Below, in pieces: positions 24,619-54,537 of a stretch of DNA of 64,000 bases (the stretch's first letter is position 1; each line of letters starts with the position of its first letter). The DNA comes from a virus, in the IMG/VR virus record IMGVR_UViG_3300036827_000091, positions 1-64,000 of that record; one strand, given 5' to 3'. The position numbers were made by a program, and so were the translations under genes. The notes under the pieces are model-generated. The model searched no databases and had not been told where the DNA came from. It worked only from the letters and a program-made list of their open reading frames with translations.

Positions 24619-25356
24619 ATGATCACATCCGTGAAGTGGCGGCAGATCGCCCGCGACCTGCGTAACCGGATCGCCCGGGGTGAGCTTCGCCCAGGTGACC
24701 CGCTGCCGTCCGAGCGGGAGCTGGAGGCCCGTCACGGAGTCGCCCGCGGCACCGCCCGGGTGGCGCTGCAGCACCTGGTGCAAACCGGCGCGGCGGTGGA
24801 CGGCAGCCCGCGCCGGGTGGCACACGCCGAGCTGCTGACCGTGCATATCACCCGCACCGCGGACCGCACCTCGCCCGGCGAATCGCCTACCCTGGGCGCG
24901 GACTCCTGGCTGGGCGACATGCGGGCGGCCGGGCGAGAGCCCGCCCACGAGCTGGACGTGATCACCCGGCAGGCCAGCCGCGAGCTGGCCCAGCGGCTGG
25001 AAGTAGGCGAAGGCTCAGCGGTGGTGGCCCGGCGGCAGCTGCGGCGCGCCGGCGAGCGCCCGCACAATGAGATCACCTACTGGTACCCGGCGGGCGTGGC
25101 CCGCGGGACTCCGCTGGCTAGCCCGGCCAGCATCATCGAAGGGGCGCTGGCATGGCTGGAAACCAACCGGGGGCAGCTGCTGCACGAGGTGGAGATCACC
25201 GCGAGGATGCCCGGCGAAGACGAGGCGGGCCGGCTGCAGATCCCCGGCGGGGTGCCGGTGGCTGTGGTGTGGCGGACGTCGCGGACCCTGGCCGGGGTGC
25301 CGATGGTGACGTCGATGGCCGTGTACCCTGCGGACCGGACCAGGCTGGCCCTCTGA
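24619..25356 (+). CDS. GntR family regulator, HutC subfamily (KorSA/TraR-like)
   Basis: A 245-residue repressor. The N-terminal winged helix (about residues 5-70) has the GntR signature: RIARGELRPGDPLPSERELEARHGVARGTARVALQ, read in parts. Residues 85-240 form a UTRA ligand domain (an LLHEVEIT-type strand and a VWRTSRT strand). HutC members such as KorSA and TraR repress transfer genes and themselves in Streptomyces plasmids and AICEs. The operators just upstream and the divergent membrane-protein operon fit the same job here. It appears to be translated from a leaderless message. Confidence 0.88.
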   Translation: MITSVKWRQIARDLRNRIARGELRPGDPLPSERELEARHGVARGTARVALQHLVQTGAAVDGSPRRVAHAELLTVHITRTADRTSPGESPTLGADSWLGDMRAAGREPAHELDVITRQASRELAQRLEVGEGSAVVARRQLRRAGERPHNEITYWYPAGVARGTPLASPASIIEGALAWLETNRGQLLHEVEITARMPGEDEAGRLQIPGGVPVAVVWRTSRTLAGVPMVTSMAVYPADRTRLAL

Positions 25357-42161: not shown

Positions 42162-42643
42162 GTCTTCTGCCTCCTGCCTGCTGCCAATGTAGCCACCGCC
42201 TCGGACACTCTGCCCGTCACCCCGGGCGGCATCTGCCCGGACCGCAGCAGCCACCGGTACATGTGGCAGGCGGCGGACTGGGCGTCATCCTTGCCTCTCA
42301 CCCACCAGCCGGCCGCCTGCAGCCATTCCCGCTCGTGCGGCTTCGGGGTGTGCCGTGGGGCCTCAGGAAGCACCAGGCAGCCATGCTTGCCCGCCAGGTA
42401 CCGGGCAGCTCCGATCGGCTCGATCGCGTCCCGTGCGTTGGTCTGCGGCTCGCGGCGGGTCACCTGGTAGGTTTCCCAGCCGATAGCCAGCGTGTTCTGG
42501 TACCGGTGGCAGGTGTCTTCGATCCGGGCGCACGCGGTCTGGAAGTCGTGCTCGTCACACCAGAACGCCCGGCCGGTGTCATACAACCAGGCCAGGCCGG
42601 TCATCCCGCCCGGGTCGATCCACAGCACGCATGGCGGCAGCAT
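42158..42643 (-). CDS. RuvC-like Holliday junction resolvase
   Basis: A 161-residue protein with the RNase H-type acidic tetrad: Asp10 in LWIDPGG, Glu57 in IGWETY, and Asp119-Asp120 in KDDAQSA. Length and motif order match phage RuvC-like resolvases. It would process recombination junctions or branched DNA before packaging. Overlaps link it to the ParB-like gene upstream and helicase downstream. Confidence 0.82.
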   Translation of the reverse strand: MLPPCVLWIDPGGMTGLAWLYDTGRAFWCDEHDFQTACARIEDTCHRYQNTLAIGWETYQVTRREPQTNARDAIEPIGAARYLAGKHGCLVLPEAPRHTPKPHEREWLQAAGWWVRGKDDAQSAACHMYRWLLRSGQMPPGVTGRVSEAVATLAAGRRQKT

Positions 42644-43398
42644 CAGACGAACAGGTCTAGTCGGTTTGCCCTCTTATTCCTGTTGTACCGGGCGATCATC
42701 GCGTTGGCGTACTTGTTCCGCCTCGACTGCTTGATAGCCTGCGCCTCGGCCTCCCGGCGAAGGGTTTCCGGGTCTATCTCACGCAGGACTTTGATCAGCC
42801 GTTGGTAATCAAGATCCCTCTTGCGGAGAAGCAGGCCCAGCCCGGCTACGATGCGCGCATGAGCGCCCTGTGGGTTGGTTCCCCAGGCGTGGGTGATCGT
42901 CTCGATCACCTGCTTTGCCACGTCCAGGCCATTTTCTCCCTGCATGGCAACGATCCGAAGCGTGGCGACCGCGGCGAATGTGTTCTGCCCCCCGGACTTG
43001 GCGATCCGCCAGCCGTGGTGCTCTAGGGCCTGAGCCAGCGCCAGGTGCGGCTGCCGTTCCGCCTTGACGCACTGAAGGAACAAGGTGATGGGCTGCTTCG
43101 CCTTGTGGGTGTTGAGAGCGACGAACAAGTCGGATTCTTCTGCGAAGGTAAGCCCGGTGTGGACATCCGCCCAGACGCCGTCCTCGCCACAAGCGCGCCG
43201 CACGGCTATCTGGTGCTGGCCGTCCACGATGTGATACAGGTCGGTGCCACGCACAGACAGGTGCGGAACCTGCGCCTTGTCTTCGTCCCAGATTTTGAGC
43301 AGTGTTTTGACCCAGTTCTCATCCAGCGGGCACTGGTGCTCTATGTCAACGAAAGTCTGGTCGAGCCGCACCCACCTGTGTTCCTTCTTCTTCTCCAT
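42643..43398 (-). CDS. ParB-like domain protein (DUF6551-like)
   Basis: A 251-residue protein. Residues about 20-100 follow the ParB/sulfiredoxin fold: VDIEHQCPLDENWV, then YHIVDGQHQIAVRRACG, where the DGQHQ replaces the usual GxxR box, and a LFVALNTHKAKQP helix. The C-terminal part is helical and basic. Such proteins in actinophages may bind DNA or act as CTP-dependent clamps; a plasmid partition role is possible in a phage-plasmid, but no ParA is seen. ATG 43398 (TGATG) is used; GTG 43401 is an alternative. Confidence 0.72.
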   Translation of the reverse strand: MEKKKEHRWVRLDQTFVDIEHQCPLDENWVKTLLKIWDEDKAQVPHLSVRGTDLYHIVDGQHQIAVRRACGEDGVWADVHTGLTFAEESDLFVALNTHKAKQPITLFLQCVKAERQPHLALAQALEHHGWRIAKSGGQNTFAAVATLRIVAMQGENGLDVAKQVIETITHAWGTNPQGAHARIVAGLGLLLRKRDLDYQRLIKVLREIDPETLRREAEAQAIKQSRRNKYANAMIARYNRNKRANRLDLFV

Positions 43399-44123
43399 CA
43401 CTCGTTCATCTCCCTTGCCGTGATGAATCTGCTGATCATGGTTCTTGCTTGCTTCATGTCTTTCAGGACCGCAGCCCGCTCCTCCGCTGGCATGTCGGCG
43501 GGGAAACTGCCTGCCTGCTCCAGCTGGGCCGCGTTGACCCGCACAGCGGCCACCATGTTGAGCATGCTGCTGCGCTCACGGGACGGCCGGGCGGCTGGCT
43601 GTCGGAACACCGGGGCGCTGACCGCCTCGGGCGGAGCTGCGCTTGCGGCAGGCTGGCTAGGCGGGGCCTGCTGGGAGCGCAGCCACTCCTGGGCTGCTTT
43701 CACCGCCGTGCCCTGGGTGACCGGCTTGCCCTGCTCCCGCGCCGCTGCCTTGATCTTCTCGTACCGGTCTTCAGGCAGCCGGGCGATGAGCTGCCAGCGT
43801 TCCGCAATTCCTGGTGTGCTGCTGTCTTTTCGCTGGTTGAATCCTGCTTCACTGAGTGCGGTTTGCAACGGAGTACTTCGTCCCTCTGTGGTCCGAACTC
43901 CGCGTTGCGGAAGCAGTGAAAGCAGGTACTTCCCCGCCGCTCGCTCAGCGTCCAGCTTGACATCAGCCCACTCGATCAGCTCCTCCACTGGCATCCGTAG
44001 TCGTTTAATCGCCTCCAGGCCGACCGCTGAGCCATCGATCACCTGCTTGATCTCGGGCAGAGTCTGCGCACGGGCCAGGGCGGCCCTGGCGACAGATGGC
44101 ACTGCCAGATCGGTGCTAGTCAT
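43398..44123 (-). CDS. phage DNA-binding regulatory protein
   Basis: A 241-residue protein of a type common near phage ParB-like genes. A helical N-terminus (ARAQTLPEIKQVIDGSAVGLEAI) is followed by DVKLDAERAAGKYLL, a helix-turn-helix-like middle (TALSEAGFNQRKDSSTPGIAERWQLIARLPED, read in parts), a Pro/Ala linker and a helical C-terminus. It probably binds DNA and works with the ParB-like protein. Exact function unknown. Confidence 0.62.
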   Translation of the reverse strand: MTSTDLAVPSVARAALARAQTLPEIKQVIDGSAVGLEAIKRLRMPVEELIEWADVKLDAERAAGKYLLSLLPQRGVRTTEGRSTPLQTALSEAGFNQRKDSSTPGIAERWQLIARLPEDRYEKIKAAAREQGKPVTQGTAVKAAQEWLRSQQAPPSQPAASAAPPEAVSAPVFRQPAARPSRERSSMLNMVAAVRVNAAQLEQAGSFPADMPAEERAAVLKDMKQARTMISRFITAREMNE

Positions 44124-44172: not shown

Positions 44173-45966
44173 TCACGTTTTCACCCACCGCTCAGGAAGG
44201 ATCTCGCCGCTCCAGGTCAAAGGCACCGGGAAGTTGTCGCGGTCGGTGAGGATCTGGGTCCAGTGCCGCTTGATGTCCTCAGCGTGCTCCCGGGGCACCT
44301 CGCCCAGCAGCTCGTCGTGGATGGTCAGGCGCAGCATGTCTTCGTAGCCGGCGGCGGCCACCGCCACCGCGCCGTGTTTCAAGATTTCCGCGGCGCTGCC
44401 CTGAATCCTGTAGTCGATGGCGCTGTAGGCGCGGTGCCGGTCCACCACCAGCTCGCGTCCGGTGATCGTTTTCACCCGCGGCTGGCCTTTCATCCGCTTC
44501 ATCCGCTCCACCAGGCGGCGCGAGTCTTTGGCCAGCACCGGGTACATGGTTTTGAAGCCCTGGTAGATGGGCTCCAGCTGGTCCACGGACACCCCGGCGG
44601 TGACCGCGGCGGTGTCCATCCCGCTGCCGTAGATGGTGGCGTACACCGTGTTTTTGGTCATGGTGTAACGCGGGTCTTTCTTAGCGATCTTCTCACCGTA
44701 GATCCGGCCGGCCATGTTGAGGAAAAACGACTGGCCGGTGCGGTCGCACTCGTTGAAATCGGCGATCATCTTCGGGTCGCCGCTGGTGATCGCGCACAGC
44801 CGGGCCTCGATCTGGTCGGCGTCGATGGTGATGAACACCATGCCGTCCCGTGGCCGGAAGCTGCCGCGCACGATCGGGATGTCCCGGTCAAACGTCTGCA
44901 TCGGCGGGTCGGTGACGCTGTTGCGACCGGTGCGCTGCGCCCCGGTGCTATGAATCGAATAGTGCACGATTCCGTCAACAGCCATGGCCAGGAACTTGGC
45001 CAGGTACCGGTTCTGGATGCCGTCAGCTTTTTTGACAAACCTGAGCGCGTCCAGCAGCGGTTTCGCCTCCGGGTGCCGGGCGGCGTACCAGTCCATGGCC
45101 GCCTTGTCCACCTGCGGCATCCCGGTTCCGGTGCGCGGGCCGATTTCGATGCCCGCCTTTTCCAGGGCAGCGCCCACCGAGCCGTTGCCCATGTTGGCAA
45201 CCCCCCACTGGTCCCGCAGCCAGCGCTGCGCGCCCGCCTCCCATTCGGCGATCAGCGACTGCCAGCGCTTGATGTACGGGATGTCGATCATCATCCCGGC
45301 GGACATCATTTTCGCGCACAGCCGGGCATAGGACATCTCCAGGTCGTAGGAGCGCGGCCAGCGCGACCGCGCTGCCGGCAGGTGCTTGCCCAGTAGGTGG
45401 CTGGTGAGCACCGGGTCCAGCGCCGCGTAAATCCAGTATTCGGGCAGGGTGCCGGGCACCGTGGCCCAGGTCCAGTGGCCGGCGCGCATCGCCTCGGACA
45501 GCGCCTTCTCCCCGGCCATGGCCGCCGGGTCGATGTCCCTGGCGCAGCGCGGCTTCAGCTTGCCCACTGCGGCGGAGTCGGCCAGGTGACACACCAGCTG
45601 GGCGTCGTCGGCCTGAGCCCAGTTCAGCCTCACCCCGGACTGGTGCTCAAACACCCGCATGTCGTACGGGCTGTTGAACATGCCCACCCGCCCGCGGTAA
45701 CCAGCCAGCAGCTCATGCGCCGCGCCCATCCACTCCGGGGGGAACGCCCATCCCCGGCTGCCGTCGCCCAGCTGGGTCATGCGGTGAGCGTCCCGGTGGC
45801 AGTTCAGCCCCGCCGACTCGGTGTCGGCGCACAGCTGGCCGTTCAGCTGGCCGCTCAGCCAGCGCCGGCAGTCATCCAGCGCGGCCAGGCTGGTCACATG
45901 GCGCAGCACTGCCCCGTCCAGCGCGCCGCCACGGGCCGGCATCACATAGGTGTCAGACGACGTCAT
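44173..45966 (-). CDS. family A DNA polymerase
   Basis: A 597-residue polymerase I-like enzyme lacking a 5'-nuclease. The 3'-5' exonuclease domain starts with Asp48 and Glu50 (CADTESAGL) and includes FNSPYDMRVF. In the polymerase domain, motif A reads TIDADQIEARL, motif B has the K-to-YG pattern (TKNTVYATIYGSG), and motif C is IHDELL. Motif A has Ala-Asp where most have Tyr-Ser. It should replicate the phage genome with the Prim-Pol and helicases encoded at 48-53 kb. Confidence 0.92.
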   Translation of the reverse strand: MTSSDTYVMPARGGALDGAVLRHVTSLAALDDCRRWLSGQLNGQLCADTESAGLNCHRDAHRMTQLGDGSRGWAFPPEWMGAAHELLAGYRGRVGMFNSPYDMRVFEHQSGVRLNWAQADDAQLVCHLADSAAVGKLKPRCARDIDPAAMAGEKALSEAMRAGHWTWATVPGTLPEYWIYAALDPVLTSHLLGKHLPAARSRWPRSYDLEMSYARLCAKMMSAGMMIDIPYIKRWQSLIAEWEAGAQRWLRDQWGVANMGNGSVGAALEKAGIEIGPRTGTGMPQVDKAAMDWYAARHPEAKPLLDALRFVKKADGIQNRYLAKFLAMAVDGIVHYSIHSTGAQRTGRNSVTDPPMQTFDRDIPIVRGSFRPRDGMVFITIDADQIEARLCAITSGDPKMIADFNECDRTGQSFFLNMAGRIYGEKIAKKDPRYTMTKNTVYATIYGSGMDTAAVTAGVSVDQLEPIYQGFKTMYPVLAKDSRRLVERMKRMKGQPRVKTITGRELVVDRHRAYSAIDYRIQGSAAEILKHGAVAVAAAGYEDMLRLTIHDELLGEVPREHAEDIKRHWTQILTDRDNFPVPLTWSGEILPERWVKT

Positions 45967-48455: not shown

Positions 48456-49397
48456 ATGACCGACTGCCTTACCAGCGGATACAGCCAAGCTGACCTGAAC
48501 CGCCTGGGCTTGGGTGCTGCAGCCCTGAAATGGCAGCGCCTCGGGTTTAGCGTGCTCGCGCTCGCGCCGGGCACCAAGCGCCCGCACCGGCTGTTCGCCA
48601 GCAACGGCACTGAAACTCTCGCCGGGGTGCACTGGGCTACCACTGACCCGCGGATGGTTGAGCACGTATGGAGCCGGGACAAGCTGGCGGGCGTCGGCAT
48701 CAGGACTAACAGGCTGGTAGTCGTTGACCTGGACACCCATCACGGCAACCATGGTGAAGCTGAGCTGGCATCGTTCACTGACGCATGGTCGCTGCCGTTG
48801 CCGCCCACTTTTTGCCAGTTCACGCCCAGCGGTGGCAAGCATCTGTGGTACAGGCTGCCAGCGGGGGTGCAGTTGCCCAGCCGCACCTCGATCCTGCCCG
48901 GAGTGGACATCAAAGCCGGCGGCGGGTACGTGGCAGCCGCCCCCACCATGATCTGGCAGGAGTCGATGGACGGCGGCCGGGTCCTGGTCCCGTACCGGAT
49001 GCACGGCTGCCCGTGCGCGCTGGCATGGCTGCCAGGCTGGATGGCCGACTGGGTGCTGCACGCGGCAGGCGAGCCCCAGGGCGCGGGCGGGCCAGGCGGC
49101 GGCGATCAGGATGAGCTGCCCGACCTTTCCCAGTTCCAGGCACACGGCCTGCCCCGCGGCGAGCGGAACGTCACCGCGCACCGGCTGGCCTGCCGGTTGT
49201 TCCGCCGGTTCGGCGTCACGCCATCAGGGGTGGCCGCGGTGCGCGGCCAGCTGCAGCACGTGTTCGACGCCACCGACATGCGCGGTTTCAGCGAGCACGA
49301 GGTGGCCACCATGCTGGAATCGGCGCGCCGGTACATCGCCAGGCAGATGGACAAGGAGGCGGAAGCATGGCAGGACTACCAGCAGACAGCGAAATGA
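48456..49397 (+). CDS. Prim-Pol (bifunctional DNA primase/polymerase)
   Basis: A 313-residue protein of the archaeo-eukaryotic primase class. The Prim-Pol N-terminal domain shows ALKWQRLGFSVLALAPGTKRP, the metal-binding Asp91-x-Asp93 (VVVDLDTHHG), His129 in TPSGGKHLWYR, and DIKAGGGYVAAAP. The C-terminal third is a helical region. With the separate D5-like helicase gene it should make primers at the fork; in many phages these two are fused. Confidence 0.85.
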   Translation: MTDCLTSGYSQADLNRLGLGAAALKWQRLGFSVLALAPGTKRPHRLFASNGTETLAGVHWATTDPRMVEHVWSRDKLAGVGIRTNRLVVVDLDTHHGNHGEAELASFTDAWSLPLPPTFCQFTPSGGKHLWYRLPAGVQLPSRTSILPGVDIKAGGGYVAAAPTMIWQESMDGGRVLVPYRMHGCPCALAWLPGWMADWVLHAAGEPQGAGGPGGGDQDELPDLSQFQAHGLPRGERNVTAHRLACRLFRRFGVTPSGVAAVRGQLQHVFDATDMRGFSEHEVATMLESARRYIARQMDKEAEAWQDYQQTAK

Positions 49398-50336: not shown

Positions 50337-51875
50337 ATGACGATGACTGAACCACAGCGCGGCCAGCCCGGCACCTGGCGCTACCTGGCATTCTGGCGCG
50401 GCGATGGCGACATGGACCTGAAAGCCACCTTGGCCGGGCTGCCGTGCAACGACATGCACGCCGCGCACTTGGTCGCCGGGGAAATCTGGCCAGGCGAGCT
50501 GCACCACGCCACCGACCTGGGCCGCTGGCACGTGTGGGACGGGCGCTGCCACCGGCCGGACGACTGTGCGCTGATCGACCGGAAAATCAACCAGCTCACC
50601 TGGTGGTGTGAGGCGGTGATCGGCCAGGCCCGGCAGCAGGTGGCTGCGCAAGTCACCGCCGCCAACCCGGGAGCGGACACCAAAACGGTCGGCCAGGCGA
50701 TCAAAACAGCATGGGCACCGTGGGGGGAAGCAGAAAAATACGCGGCCGGGCTGCGGCGCACCGCCGGGCTCACCGCGCTGCGCACCCGGCTGGCCGGGGT
50801 GTGCGGGGTGAACGAGGCATGGCTCGAAGACGGCCTGCCCGACTACCTGAACGTGGCCAACGGCATCCTGCACCTGCCCACACTGACCTTGCACCCGCAC
50901 GACCCGCGGGCCAGGATCACCTACTGCGTGCCCGTGGCCTGGAACCCGCAAGCCAGCTGCCCATGGTTCAATGCGATGGCGCTGCGCGCCTGCGACGGCA
51001 GCCAGGTGGTGGCCGACTACCTGATCCGGGTGCTTGGGTACTGCCTGATCGGCGACAACCGGGAGCAGAAGATCTTTTTCCTGTCCGGCGACACCGGGTC
51101 CGGCAAATCCCAGGTGCTGGGCGCAATCGCCGAGGTGCTGGGCACGCTGCACCACAGCTCCCAGAACTCGCTGATCAGCGTGGAACGCAACGGGCGCAAC
51201 GCCCGGGTCGAATGGTCCTGCGCGGGCGCACGGATCGTGACCATCACCGAGACGTCCGGGCACAACACCACCGACGAGGCCCAGGTGAAACGGCTTACCG
51301 GGGAGGCATACATCAGCGTGGACCGGCACTATTCCAAGACGGAGGTGAAAGTGAAAGTGACGTTCACCATCATCCAGTCCACCAACGAGATGCAGACCCT
51401 CACCAATTTCGACAGCGCCATGGGCCGCCGGGTCGAAGTGCTGCCCATGTCAAAAATCGAAATCCCGTCCGAGCAGCAGGTGAAAGGTCTGGGCAAGCTG
51501 GTGGCTGACCGCGAGGCCGAAGGCATCCTGGCGCTGCTGGCGTCGGCAGCGCAGGCATATTACGCCGAGGGGCTGCACCCGCCAGCCGAAGTGCTGGCTG
51601 AGACAGCGCGGTACCGCGCCCAGCAGAACACGCTGGAAGATTTCATGGCTGAATGCGTCACCATCGTCCCCTCCCTGAACGGGAGCCGCCCGGCGTGGGC
51701 CGGCCAGTCGGCGGTGTGGCGCGCCTACCTGGACCATTCGGCGGGCGGGCCACGGCTGCGCAAAAGCCAGTTTCTCGGCCAGCTCCGCGACCACCCGGCG
51801 GTCACCTACAACGAGGGCTCCCGCCGGTTCGAGGGCATCTCGCTGATCGAAGGGATCGAAGCCCATGAACGATGA
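50337..51875 (+). CDS. D5-like SF3 helicase
   Basis: A 512-residue protein with the D5 N-terminal region (NVANGILHLPTLTLHPHDP is the hallmark segment, residues about 178-196) and an SF3 ATPase: Walker A GDTGSGKSQ near residue 250, ITETSG as the B motif area, and IIQSTNEMQT as motif C. It is the replicative helicase, working with the separate Prim-Pol. A 143-bp gap upstream holds an imperfect hairpin (GCGCTCCC/GGGAGGCGC near 50277-50301). Confidence 0.88.
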   Translation: MTMTEPQRGQPGTWRYLAFWRGDGDMDLKATLAGLPCNDMHAAHLVAGEIWPGELHHATDLGRWHVWDGRCHRPDDCALIDRKINQLTWWCEAVIGQARQQVAAQVTAANPGADTKTVGQAIKTAWAPWGEAEKYAAGLRRTAGLTALRTRLAGVCGVNEAWLEDGLPDYLNVANGILHLPTLTLHPHDPRARITYCVPVAWNPQASCPWFNAMALRACDGSQVVADYLIRVLGYCLIGDNREQKIFFLSGDTGSGKSQVLGAIAEVLGTLHHSSQNSLISVERNGRNARVEWSCAGARIVTITETSGHNTTDEAQVKRLTGEAYISVDRHYSKTEVKVKVTFTIIQSTNEMQTLTNFDSAMGRRVEVLPMSKIEIPSEQQVKGLGKLVADREAEGILALLASAAQAYYAEGLHPPAEVLAETARYRAQQNTLEDFMAECVTIVPSLNGSRPAWAGQSAVWRAYLDHSAGGPRLRKSQFLGQLRDHPAVTYNEGSRRFEGISLIEGIEAHER

Positions 51876-53103
51876 CATTCTCACGCCCGAGCAGGAAGCC
51901 GTCCTGCATGCTGCTGTCAGCTGGTTTGGCCACGCCGGGCCGGGCAGCCTGCTCACCGTCGGCGGGTTCGCGGGCACCGGCAAGACGTTCACCATCGCGC
52001 ACCTGCCTGAACGGCTGCCTGGAGTGGTCATCCAGTTCTGCGCGCCCACCGGCAAAGCGGCCGAGCAGCTGCGGCGCAAACTGCCCGCTGGCGCTGCTGT
52101 GCGGACCATCCACTCCCTTCTGTACCACCGGGTGGAATGCGAAAGATGCGGCTGCGGCAGCTGTGGCGAGCTGCCATGGTCGCTGGTGCCCCCGGGGACC
52201 TGCAAAAGGCCGGTTCTCAACGCTCGCGGCGTGCCGGCCGAGGAAGCCACCTGGCTCTACGACCCGGCATGGGAGCGTGCTGGGGCAGGCGAAGACGGCG
52301 ATCCGCGAGCGCCAGCGCCTGGCCTGCTGGTCGCGGACGAGGCATCCATGATCAACGAGATCATGTTTGCTGACCTGCAGCGCACCGGCATCCCCCTGAT
52401 CGCCGTTGGCGACCATGGCCAGCTGAAACCGGTCAAATCCGGCTTCTCCCTGATGGCCAGCCCGGACCTGCGGCTGGAAACCATCGTCCGCCAGCGGGCC
52501 GGCGACCCGATCATCCAGATGTCGGCGCAGGCCCGCGCGACCGGGGACATCAGCTACGGCCGGCAGGGGCCGCAAGCCGTGAAAATCTACCGCAGCCAGT
52601 GGTCCTGGTCCATGTGGGCACCGGGCACCATGATGGTGGTGGCCAGGCGCAAAACCCGGCGGGCCAACAACCTGGCCATCCGGGCCTGGCAGCTCGGCCC
52701 GGCCGGGGCCGGGGAGGTGATCACAGCCGGGGAGCCGGTGATCTGCCTGAAAAACAGCCGGCAAGCCGGGGTGTTCAACGGGGAGACGTTCGTCGCCGAC
52801 GAAGTAGGCCAGGTGGGCGAGCTGTCAGTGATGCTGCGGTGCGGGGACCGCTGGCTCAACGCCGCCATCGCCCAGTTCGGCTGCGAAGACACCCTCACCT
52901 CGCGGGAAACGCCGCCAGGCACGGTGCTGCTCGACTACGCCTACGCCATCACCTGCCACAAGGCGCAAGGCTCCGAGGCGGAACGGGTGATCGTGGTCGA
53001 AGAAAACTGGCCGCCGCGGGGCAGGGGCGATGAAAGGCAGCGATGGCTGTACACGGCGGTCACCCGGGCCAGGACTGAGCTGATCGTGGTGGGCACCAGT
53101 TGA
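51865..53103 (+). CDS. RecD/Dda-like SF1 helicase
   Basis: A 412-residue SF1B helicase. Walker A is GFAGTGKT at about residue 34; motif Ia FCAPTGKAAEQL; Walker B VADEASMI; motif III GDHGQLKPV; and the C-terminal motifs YAITCHKAQGSE and YTAVTRART. A CERCGCGSCG insert near residue 95 could bind zinc. Likely a replication or recombination helicase with 5'-3' polarity. It overlaps the D5-like gene by 11 bases and is followed by the AT-rich segment. Confidence 0.88.
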   Translation: MNDDILTPEQEAVLHAAVSWFGHAGPGSLLTVGGFAGTGKTFTIAHLPERLPGVVIQFCAPTGKAAEQLRRKLPAGAAVRTIHSLLYHRVECERCGCGSCGELPWSLVPPGTCKRPVLNARGVPAEEATWLYDPAWERAGAGEDGDPRAPAPGLLVADEASMINEIMFADLQRTGIPLIAVGDHGQLKPVKSGFSLMASPDLRLETIVRQRAGDPIIQMSAQARATGDISYGRQGPQAVKIYRSQWSWSMWAPGTMMVVARRKTRRANNLAIRAWQLGPAGAGEVITAGEPVICLKNSRQAGVFNGETFVADEVGQVGELSVMLRCGDRWLNAAIAQFGCEDTLTSRETPPGTVLLDYAYAITCHKAQGSEAERVIVVEENWPPRGRGDERQRWLYTAVTRARTELIVVGTS

Positions 53104-53400
53104 GAATCGCACCTCAAAAACGGGATGATCATGAAACGAGGTAGTCATGGTGAGACTACAGGGTTCAAAGGATTTGGGAGGATTCTGGAAGATTCTAGGG
53201 GATTCTAGGATCAGTGAGAGCATGTTGCGACCAAAGTGCGAAAACGGGATGATCATGGTTAAAAAGTGCGAAGCTCTGACCTGCGGTTATGCCCCTATTT
53301 CACACTTTTACACTTTTAACATCCTCTCCGCGTAAGAGAGAGAGAGAGAGAGTATAGGAGTAAGGGGTAGGGGAAACTGCGAAAACGTGAAATGAGGGCA
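53104..53400. other. candidate replication origin: AT-rich DNA with iterons
   Basis: This gene-free stretch has much lower GC than its surroundings and a dense set of repeats. There are three perfect-frame 10-bp units starting GATTCT (53181-53210) plus a degenerate fourth at 53171-53180. AAAACGGGATGATCATG occurs at 53117-53133 and 53241-53257, AAAGTGCGAA at 53233 and 53263, ACACTTTT twice in tandem at 53302-53317, and (AG)9 at 53335-53352. Iterons in helical phase beside AT-rich DNA, directly after the replication genes, is the usual appearance of an origin. Confidence 0.6.
53335..53352 (+). repeat. (AG)9 dinucleotide repeat
   Basis: Eighteen bases of alternating A and G at the edge of the AT-rich segment; all-purine on one strand, so it may form unusual DNA structure or be slippage-prone. 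Confidence 0.9.
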
Positions 53401-53438
53401 TGAGCTGAGGATGGATAAGGAATGATGGTAGGCTGCTG

Positions 53439-53450
53439 GTGTACGTACAC
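53439..53450. promoter_or_regulatory. GTGTACGTACAC palindrome
   Basis: A perfect 12-bp palindrome, one of the TGTACGTACA family, 136 bases before the gene at 53587. A -10-like TAGGCT lies just upstream (53429-53434). The rest of 53401-53586 shows no gene I can support, only two AGGCAGGAGGCAG stretches near the next start. Confidence 0.55.
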
Positions 53451-53586
53451 GAGCAGGATCGCAGGCAAACCATGGCGATGACCATGGCTGGCAAGGGGGA
53501 ACTCGGCGCGCCGTGCCGAGGCCCATCAGGCAGGAGGCAGGGCTGTGACAACTTTCGGGTCCAGGTTCTGAGGCAGGAGGCAGCAG

Positions 53587-54537
53587 ATGGCTACGTTCGG
53601 ACAGTGGTTTCTCGCCCAGTCAGGGCGCGGTGACCAGGTAGGATACGCCGCCAAGGCATGGCGCGACGCGAAGCGCAAGCCGCGGGCCAGCGCGCCCCAG
53701 ACGATCACCAATTTCCTGCTGGCCGACCCGGATCAGGTCCCTGAGCTGGGAAAAGACGAGATCGAGGCGGCCATGGCCGCCGCGGTCGGCCAGTACCATG
53801 AGGGCAACCACCATGTCGGTCCCGCCGTTCCCCGCCCCCCGCTGGCGTCCGTGCCGGACTCGCCTGTTTCCGCAGGTGAGAAGCCTGCAGAGGCCGCTGA
53901 TGGCGGCCAGGTGATGGCGGCCATGGACGAGCGTTTGGCAGGCATCCAGGAGCTGGTCGCTGAGCGTCACGACGTATTGCATGAGGCTATCGGCCGGGTG
54001 GAAAAGCGGGTGGCCGACCTGCACGAGCTGTATTTCGCGTTTCTGCAGGCCAGCCAGCCGCTGCTGCAGCTGGCCGCGGAGCTGCAGGAAGGCGGCGAGA
54101 AGATCGGCTCGATGCGGGCCGAAGCCACTGATGGTGACGCTCCGCAGTCGTTGAGCGATCAACTAGGCTTTGCCGACGCGGACCTGGCTGACAGCCGCCC
54201 GCCCATGGCCACCCCTGCTCAGCTCGCCGCCCAGCAGGTGGCGCAGCGTAACGGCTGGCTGCCCGGTGACGGGGAACTGGTCGGCCCGGACACCCCTGCA
54301 GGACAGGTTTTGGCTGCCCAGCAGTTCGAGGCCCCCGGACGCAAGCCGCCCAACTGGGCGGGCGGGCTGTGCGAGATCCACTGCCGGGAGGACCGCTGCG
54401 CATACGGCTGCGACTGCCCAGGCCACAAGCCTGATGGCACGCATGTCACGCAGTCCCGGCCGGGCCTGTACGGCGCGCACGCAGCGCCCGAGCCCACTCA
54501 GGCGCAGTGGCGCGCCTGGCACGAGGCAGGCGAATGA
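53587..54537 (+). CDS. YozE-like N-terminal domain protein with zinc-binding C-terminus
   Basis: A 316-residue protein. Residues 3-55 (FGQWFLAQSGRGDQVGYAAKAWRDA) match the small YozE SAM-like helical domain. The middle is a coiled coil (about residues 115-180). The C-terminal part has CEIHCREDRCAYGCDCPGH, a dense Cys/His metal site. The combination suggests a DNA-associated or regulatory protein. AGGAGG lies six bases before ATG 53587. Confidence 0.68.
   Translation: MATFGQWFLAQSGRGDQVGYAAKAWRDAKRKPRASAPQTITNFLLADPDQVPELGKDEIEAAMAAAVGQYHEGNHHVGPAVPRPPLASVPDSPVSAGEKPAEAADGGQVMAAMDERLAGIQELVAERHDVLHEAIGRVEKRVADLHELYFAFLQASQPLLQLAAELQEGGEKIGSMRAEATDGDAPQSLSDQLGFADADLADSRPPMATPAQLAAQQVAQRNGWLPGDGELVGPDTPAGQVLAAQQFEAPGRKPPNWAGGLCEIHCREDRCAYGCDCPGHKPDGTHVTQSRPGLYGAHAAPEPTQAQWRAWHEAGE

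Follow-up and report, generated by a model that had tools for sequence, protein, structure and literature searches.

Few replication origins have been located in uncultivated phages. The origin of Streptococcus phage Sfi21 was reportedly described by Foley in 1998. In the GenBank record of that phage, an "origin of replication, 302 bp non-coding region" overlaps the end of the D5-type primase gene and contains 18-bp arms that lie 71 bp apart, and the record of Lactobacillus phage A2 places a rep_origin at the end of the primase gene. PMC7581432, which cites Ubeda 2007, places the SaPI origins immediately downstream of rep. It also reports on the D5_N-type helicase Cch2: downstream of the gene for this protein lies a 23-bp direct-repeat region, containing three AAGTG iterons, to which the C-terminal domain binds. 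The pRN1 origin has been placed 3' of orf904, and the same has been proposed in some phages (PMC4234260). The D5-type origin is a known kind.

The window analyzed here comprises 64,000 nucleotides, bases 1 to 64,000 of a linear virus record (G000; 64,576 bases). It contains a 483-bp gap, with a RecD/Dda-like helicase gene before it and one with a YozE-like start after it; both genes lie on the plus strand (Table 1). The lowest 300-bp G+C content of the window falls in this gap (0.46; next lowest, 0.56), where the open reading frame-like stretches are without coding-like GC3. A tRNA search found none, and Rfam at a permissive threshold returned only two subthreshold matches to unrelated families. 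A preliminary description had delimited positions 53104-53400 as an origin candidate; that span is AT-rich and repeat-bearing as claimed, but the true unit is the whole gap, 53104-53586. This gap is very probably a replication origin of the kind found 3' of D5-type (SF3) primase-helicase genes and recognized by the D5-like helicase. We infer binding and origin activity from four lines of support for the origin reading: the position of the gap 3' of the D5-like helicase gene in five relatives, the half-site layout, the annotated origins of Sfi21 and A2, and iteron binding by Cch2. Comparison alone would then have located the origin of a GC-rich uncultivated phage and supplied both a named candidate initiator and a precise set of candidate sites.

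Table 1. Features of the candidate origin and neighboring genes, in coordinates of the window
Feature	Coordinates	Strand	Basis
Prim-Pol primase	48456..49397	+	PF09250 5.4e-28
D5-like SF3 helicase, proposed initiator	50337..51875	+	PF08706 1.7e-12; AF2 pLDDT 90.9; 7om0 Z 29.8
RecD/Dda-like helicase, between D5-like gene and gap	51865..53103	+	phrog_325 4.7e-67
AT-rich gene-free gap, candidate replication origin	53104..53586		52% GC vs 69% in 2-kb flanks
17-mer copy 1 (AAAACGGGATGATCATG)	53117..53133	+	Repeat search
Helically phased 10-bp array, three GATTCT	53169..53210	+	Lag 10: 16/20 matches, 0/500 shuffles
Block A: half-sites AAAGTGCGAA at 53233, 53263	53233..53272	+	Sites of relatives-derived motif
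17-mer copy 2	53241..53257	+	AAAACGGG of copy 8 bp after AAAGTGCG
Principal imperfect dyad, left arm	53280..53316		Relaxed inverted-repeat search
Block B: inverted tandem half-sites at 53299, 53307, 8 bp apart	53299..53316	-	Lag-8 array, 0/500 shuffles
Candidate unwinding core: purine tract separating blocks B and C	53334..53376	+	Same-strand purine tract in 6/6 regions
Block C: tandem half-sites AAACTGCGAA, AAAACGTGAA at 53374, 53382	53374..53391	+	Motif sites
Principal imperfect dyad, right arm	53374..53410		Relaxed inverted-repeat search
Gene adjoining the gap on its 3' side, YozE-like N-terminus	53587..54537	+	Alignment; fold match YozE/UPF0346

The window resembles Sfi21 and A2 in that a Prim-Pol/D5-type primase gene is followed by an AT-rich region with repeats, and it resembles Sfi21 in its inverted arms and in a core that also ends in a GA tract. 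It differs from both in that a RecD/Dda-like gene intervenes, that the half-site sequence is another one, and that the arms are imperfect. The separation of the D5-like gene from the gap by a helicase gene counts against the origin reading. Family matches confirmed the Prim-Pol, D5-like, and RecD-like genes that the preliminary description had recognized ahead of the gap. Its YozE-like label agrees with the predicted fold of the N-terminal domain (53587-53826), for which UPF0346/YozE structures form the top two rows (2o6k, Z 7.5; 2fj6, Z 6.5), but Pfam finds nothing there. PolA is encoded on the minus strand (44173-45966), together with a DNA helicase, an exonuclease, a Sak4-like protein, and a ParB-like/DUF6551 protein (42643-43401; phrog_1033 3.8e-13; PF20188). 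A regulator of the GntR-UTRA family is encoded at 24619-25356, and neither an integrase nor a ParA was found among the window proteins scanned. The proposed check by GC skew was no help in locating the origin, because the cumulative minimum up to the gap, near 48 kb, coincides with the gene-strand flip.

The D5-like protein, encoded one gene upstream, is by homology the expected initiator of the candidate origin, and the earlier statement that no initiator is evident nearby does not hold. Its fold is predicted with confidence (AF2; mean pLDDT 90.9), and the closest solved structure (VIA-align) is the SaPI5 primase-helicase, with 406 residues aligned (7om0; Z 29.8). Residues 432 to 503 are predicted to form, in order, a helix, two strands, two helices, and three strands, and the C-terminus of the family profile weakly matches the winged-helix protein RFX5 (E 0.017). 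Judged by this order of secondary structure and the weak RFX matches, the C-terminus of this D5-family helicase looks like a winged helix, which is its predicted DNA-binding domain. As described in PMC7581432, SaPI rep and SCCmec Cch2 share with the window a D5-family helicase and short iterons 3' of its gene, although C-terminal DNA binding is described for Cch2 and only predicted in the window. The AAGTG iteron of Cch2 recalls the AAAGTG of the window. Unlike these staphylococcal islands, the window combines three blocks with a purine core, and its binding is putative.

All repeats named in the preliminary description were located where it had placed them within positions 53104-53400. The GATTCT units, given as three to four, are present in three copies (53181, 53191, and 53201), with no fourth. 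The 17-bp motif occurs twice and the AAAGTGCGAA sites are paired (Table 1), ACACTTTT stands in tandem at 53302 and 53310, and GTTAAAAAGTG at 53258 forms an imperfect inverted repeat with CACTTTTAAC at 53311, with one bulged base; the AG tract spans 53334-53352. The number and layout of the repeats are nonrandom: an exact 6-mer in three copies at equal 8- to 12-bp spacing arose in 0 of 1,000 dinucleotide shuffles of the gap, as did a direct repeat of at least 17 bases. The strongest symmetric element, absent from the preliminary description, is the imperfect dyad around a 57-bp purine-rich core, with a relaxed inverted-repeat score of 15 that was reached in 0 of 200 shuffles. The strict score of the window does not stand out (17 of 100 shuffles attain it), so that only the relaxed dyad is significant; strict scores are likewise ordinary in two of the relatives described below, G007 (45 of 100 shuffles) and L138 (63 of 100).

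Inverted arms around a loop also fit a stem-loop origin of the pRN1 type, a subcase of the origin reading in which the hairpin rather than the half-sites is the signal. PMC4234260 proposes such origins for proteins with an AEP primase, an SF3 helicase, and a winged helix, in some phages too. Like pRN1 as described there, the window has these three elements (the winged helix predicted) and an inverted element immediately after the gene. In that source, the pRN1 element is described as a 100-nt stem-loop without iterons, whereas the window dyad is without excess folding: as a 131-nt hairpin, its folding does not surpass that of shuffles (z -0.85; 43 of 200 were as good or better), and a stable stem-loop of the pRN1 type was not found in the window. 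This result favors binding sites over a stem-loop; moreover, the arms are made of tandem units, and we regard a hairpin signal as unlikely. DnaA boxes of the kind found in iteron plasmids, searched at no more than 1 mismatch from the consensus, were not found in 53104-53586; this absence counts against the origin reading, and the boxes in the gap of the relative L138 count for it.

Relatives were searched with the protein encoded at 895-1806, which is capsid-like by position alone and has 47 related viral loci, up to 90% identical (L005-L051); most of these records are fragments. A D5-like gene is present in 4 of 17 searched records (G007, G027, and G012, which are close, and G026, which is distant), a significant match to the YozE-like protein in 1 of 17, and a RecD-like gene in 1 of 30. 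Most searched records with the shared protein are without the replication genes of the window. It looks as if replication modules are swapped among these relatives. Neither the RecD-like nor the D5-like protein alone recovered close relatives in viral contigs, and in genome contigs a D5 alignment and the 895-1806 protein both gave no match. L135 and L138 came from a second scan that used a D5 fragment. The D5-like protein is 38 to 45% identical across the five close relatives and 39 to 45% identical in G007, G027, and G012.

All five of these uncultivated, D5-carrying relatives have an AT-rich gap at the equivalent place, 286 to 475 bp long and 46 to 51% G+C versus 67 to 68% in the flanks. The gap directly follows the D5-like gene in G007, G027, and L135, and it lies one small open reading frame past it in G012 and several small genes past it in L138; an origin candidate is found 3' of the D5-type gene in 5 of 5 close relatives, and in the window it lies one RecD/Dda-like gene further on. 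After the candidate origin comes a gene with a YozE-like start in the window, G007, G027, L135, and G012, five of the six phages; none was seen after the gap in L138. In the distant G026, which has both D5- and RecD-like genes, no strong repeat was found 3' of either. The gap sequences of the window and the five relatives do not align, and the first four compared were without a common 11-mer. DNA matches to the gap at an E of ≤10 occurred in 9 of 30 records related by the 895-1806 protein and were unconvincing (best, 0.008). The single match to the 17-mer in viral contigs (L004) lies within a long open reading frame and was judged to be chance. Absence from close relatives, which the preliminary description had named as evidence against an origin, applies to the sequence of the segment only; its place and layout are conserved.

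Motif discovery on the six gaps recovered AAACTGYG-like (AAActGTG-type) half-sites in every gap. Their order is the same in all six (for L138, taken from the six-gap motif discovery): one or more plus-strand half-sites (block A), one or more minus-strand half-sites (block B), a plus-strand purine tract, and one or more plus-strand half-sites (block C). The spacing of half-sites inside a block is 8 bp in the window (53299/53307 and 53374/53382) and 9 bp in L135 (980/989) and L138 (6576/6585), and the window and L135 both carry a phased 10-bp array (0 of 500 shuffles in each case). When the motif was learned from the five relatives only, the top five sites of the rank-1 10-bp motif in the 64-kb window were all inside the gap, and 0 of 2,000 gap shuffles scored as well. 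In the other 10-bp leave-one-out folds, the shuffles as good numbered, out of 2,000, 3 for G007, 1 for G027, 33 for G012, and 18 for L135; for L138 the best motif was a different one, of the GATC type (50 of 2,000). When the motif was 11 bp wide and palindromes were passed over, the count was 0 of 2,000 in five folds and 1 of 2,000 in the L135 fold, the motif taken being the first nonpalindromic one, which was rank 12 in the window fold. The gap contains short repeated units that resemble binding sites, and this result depends on motif width: 4 of 10 settings, at widths 10 and 11, place the top sites in the gap, and widths 9, 12, and 13 place 0 or 1 of the top five window sites there. Two other motifs were rejected, a purine-tract motif that dominated the first runs and GATC palindromes that dominated 3 of 6 folds and are not restricted to it (0 of the top 20 sites of the window fall in the gap). 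A search of open-license papers found no description of the half-site layout, and the layout common to the six phages may be undescribed.

Under the origin reading, the D5-like protein would bind the AAACTGYG-type half-sites of blocks A, B, and C via its putative C-terminal winged helix. Once loaded at blocks B and C, which are mutually inverted, its assemblies would point toward one another over the 57-bp purine-rich core and could melt it, after which Prim-Pol would prime and PolA and the phage helicases would continue.

A wider survey found 59 D5-like loci, 3 of which are the close relatives, and 45 of the other 56 were examined. Eleven were set aside by eye as near-duplicates, as having little downstream DNA, or as weak (L092, L103, L104, L108, L114, L117, L121, L124, L130, L132, and L133). 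L079 is without downstream DNA, which leaves 44 loci counted, and 34 remain after loci with common 12-mers are dropped. The first 200 bp 3' of the D5-like gene are GC-poorer at the 44 distant loci than at 155 control gene ends (P = 1.6e-11). A significant 3' inverted repeat, one scoring above all of 30 shuffles, is present at 26 of the 34 nonredundant distant loci and at 7 of 107 control ends (P = 2.9e-15, Fisher test). At these 26 loci, the arms lie a median of 63.5 bp apart, and their self-match peaks at lag 9 (0.401 versus 0.276 in shuffles); in 21 loci the arms consist of tandem units of 8 or 9 bp (lag 9 in 14, lag 8 in 7, and another lag in 5). Among named phages, shuffles were as good in 0 of 100 cases for Sfi21, 0 of 100 for Peas, 2 of 100 for A2, and 16 of 100 for Fionnbharth. 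With the helicase core allowed for, half-site similarity weakly tracks the identity of the D5 C-terminus (partial rank correlation, 0.156; 22 of 2,000 permutations).

It is conceivable, at odds slightly short of even, that D5-type origins across tailed phages follow one grammar: two head-to-tail half-sites 8 to 9 bp apart on each side of an AT- or purine-rich core of about 40 to 80 bp, the two sides mutually inverted, with letters free to covary with the helicase C-terminus. If so, pRN1-like "stem-loops" would be inverted iteron pairs and not hairpins, and origins would be predictable in very many uncultivated phages. Most of the distant D5-like genes examined are followed 3' by a comparable layout, from which a simple origin-finding rule would come.

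The same layout bears on whether the gap is instead a regulatory region, with its repeats serving as operators for a phage regulator of the YozE-like gene and those that follow. The gap does lie between two same-direction genes, repeated inverted sites would also suit a repressor, and the phage encodes the GntR-family regulator; however, the gap holds a single, weak promoter-like site (9/12), comparable layouts occur 3' of D5-like genes in distant phages, and known phage origins occupy the equivalent place, all of which make operators improbable. A centromere-like partition site for the encoded ParB-like protein is highly improbable, since that gene lies 10 kb off on the opposite strand, the proteins scanned include no ParA, and the position of the gap tracks the D5-like gene.

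Two further observations concern short sequences in these gaps. GATC-centered palindromes at 53124-53133 and 53248-53257 recur in several of the six gaps and are common elsewhere in the window too. The candidate origin of L138 contains two perfect DnaA-box sequences 12 bp apart (L138:6389-6409).
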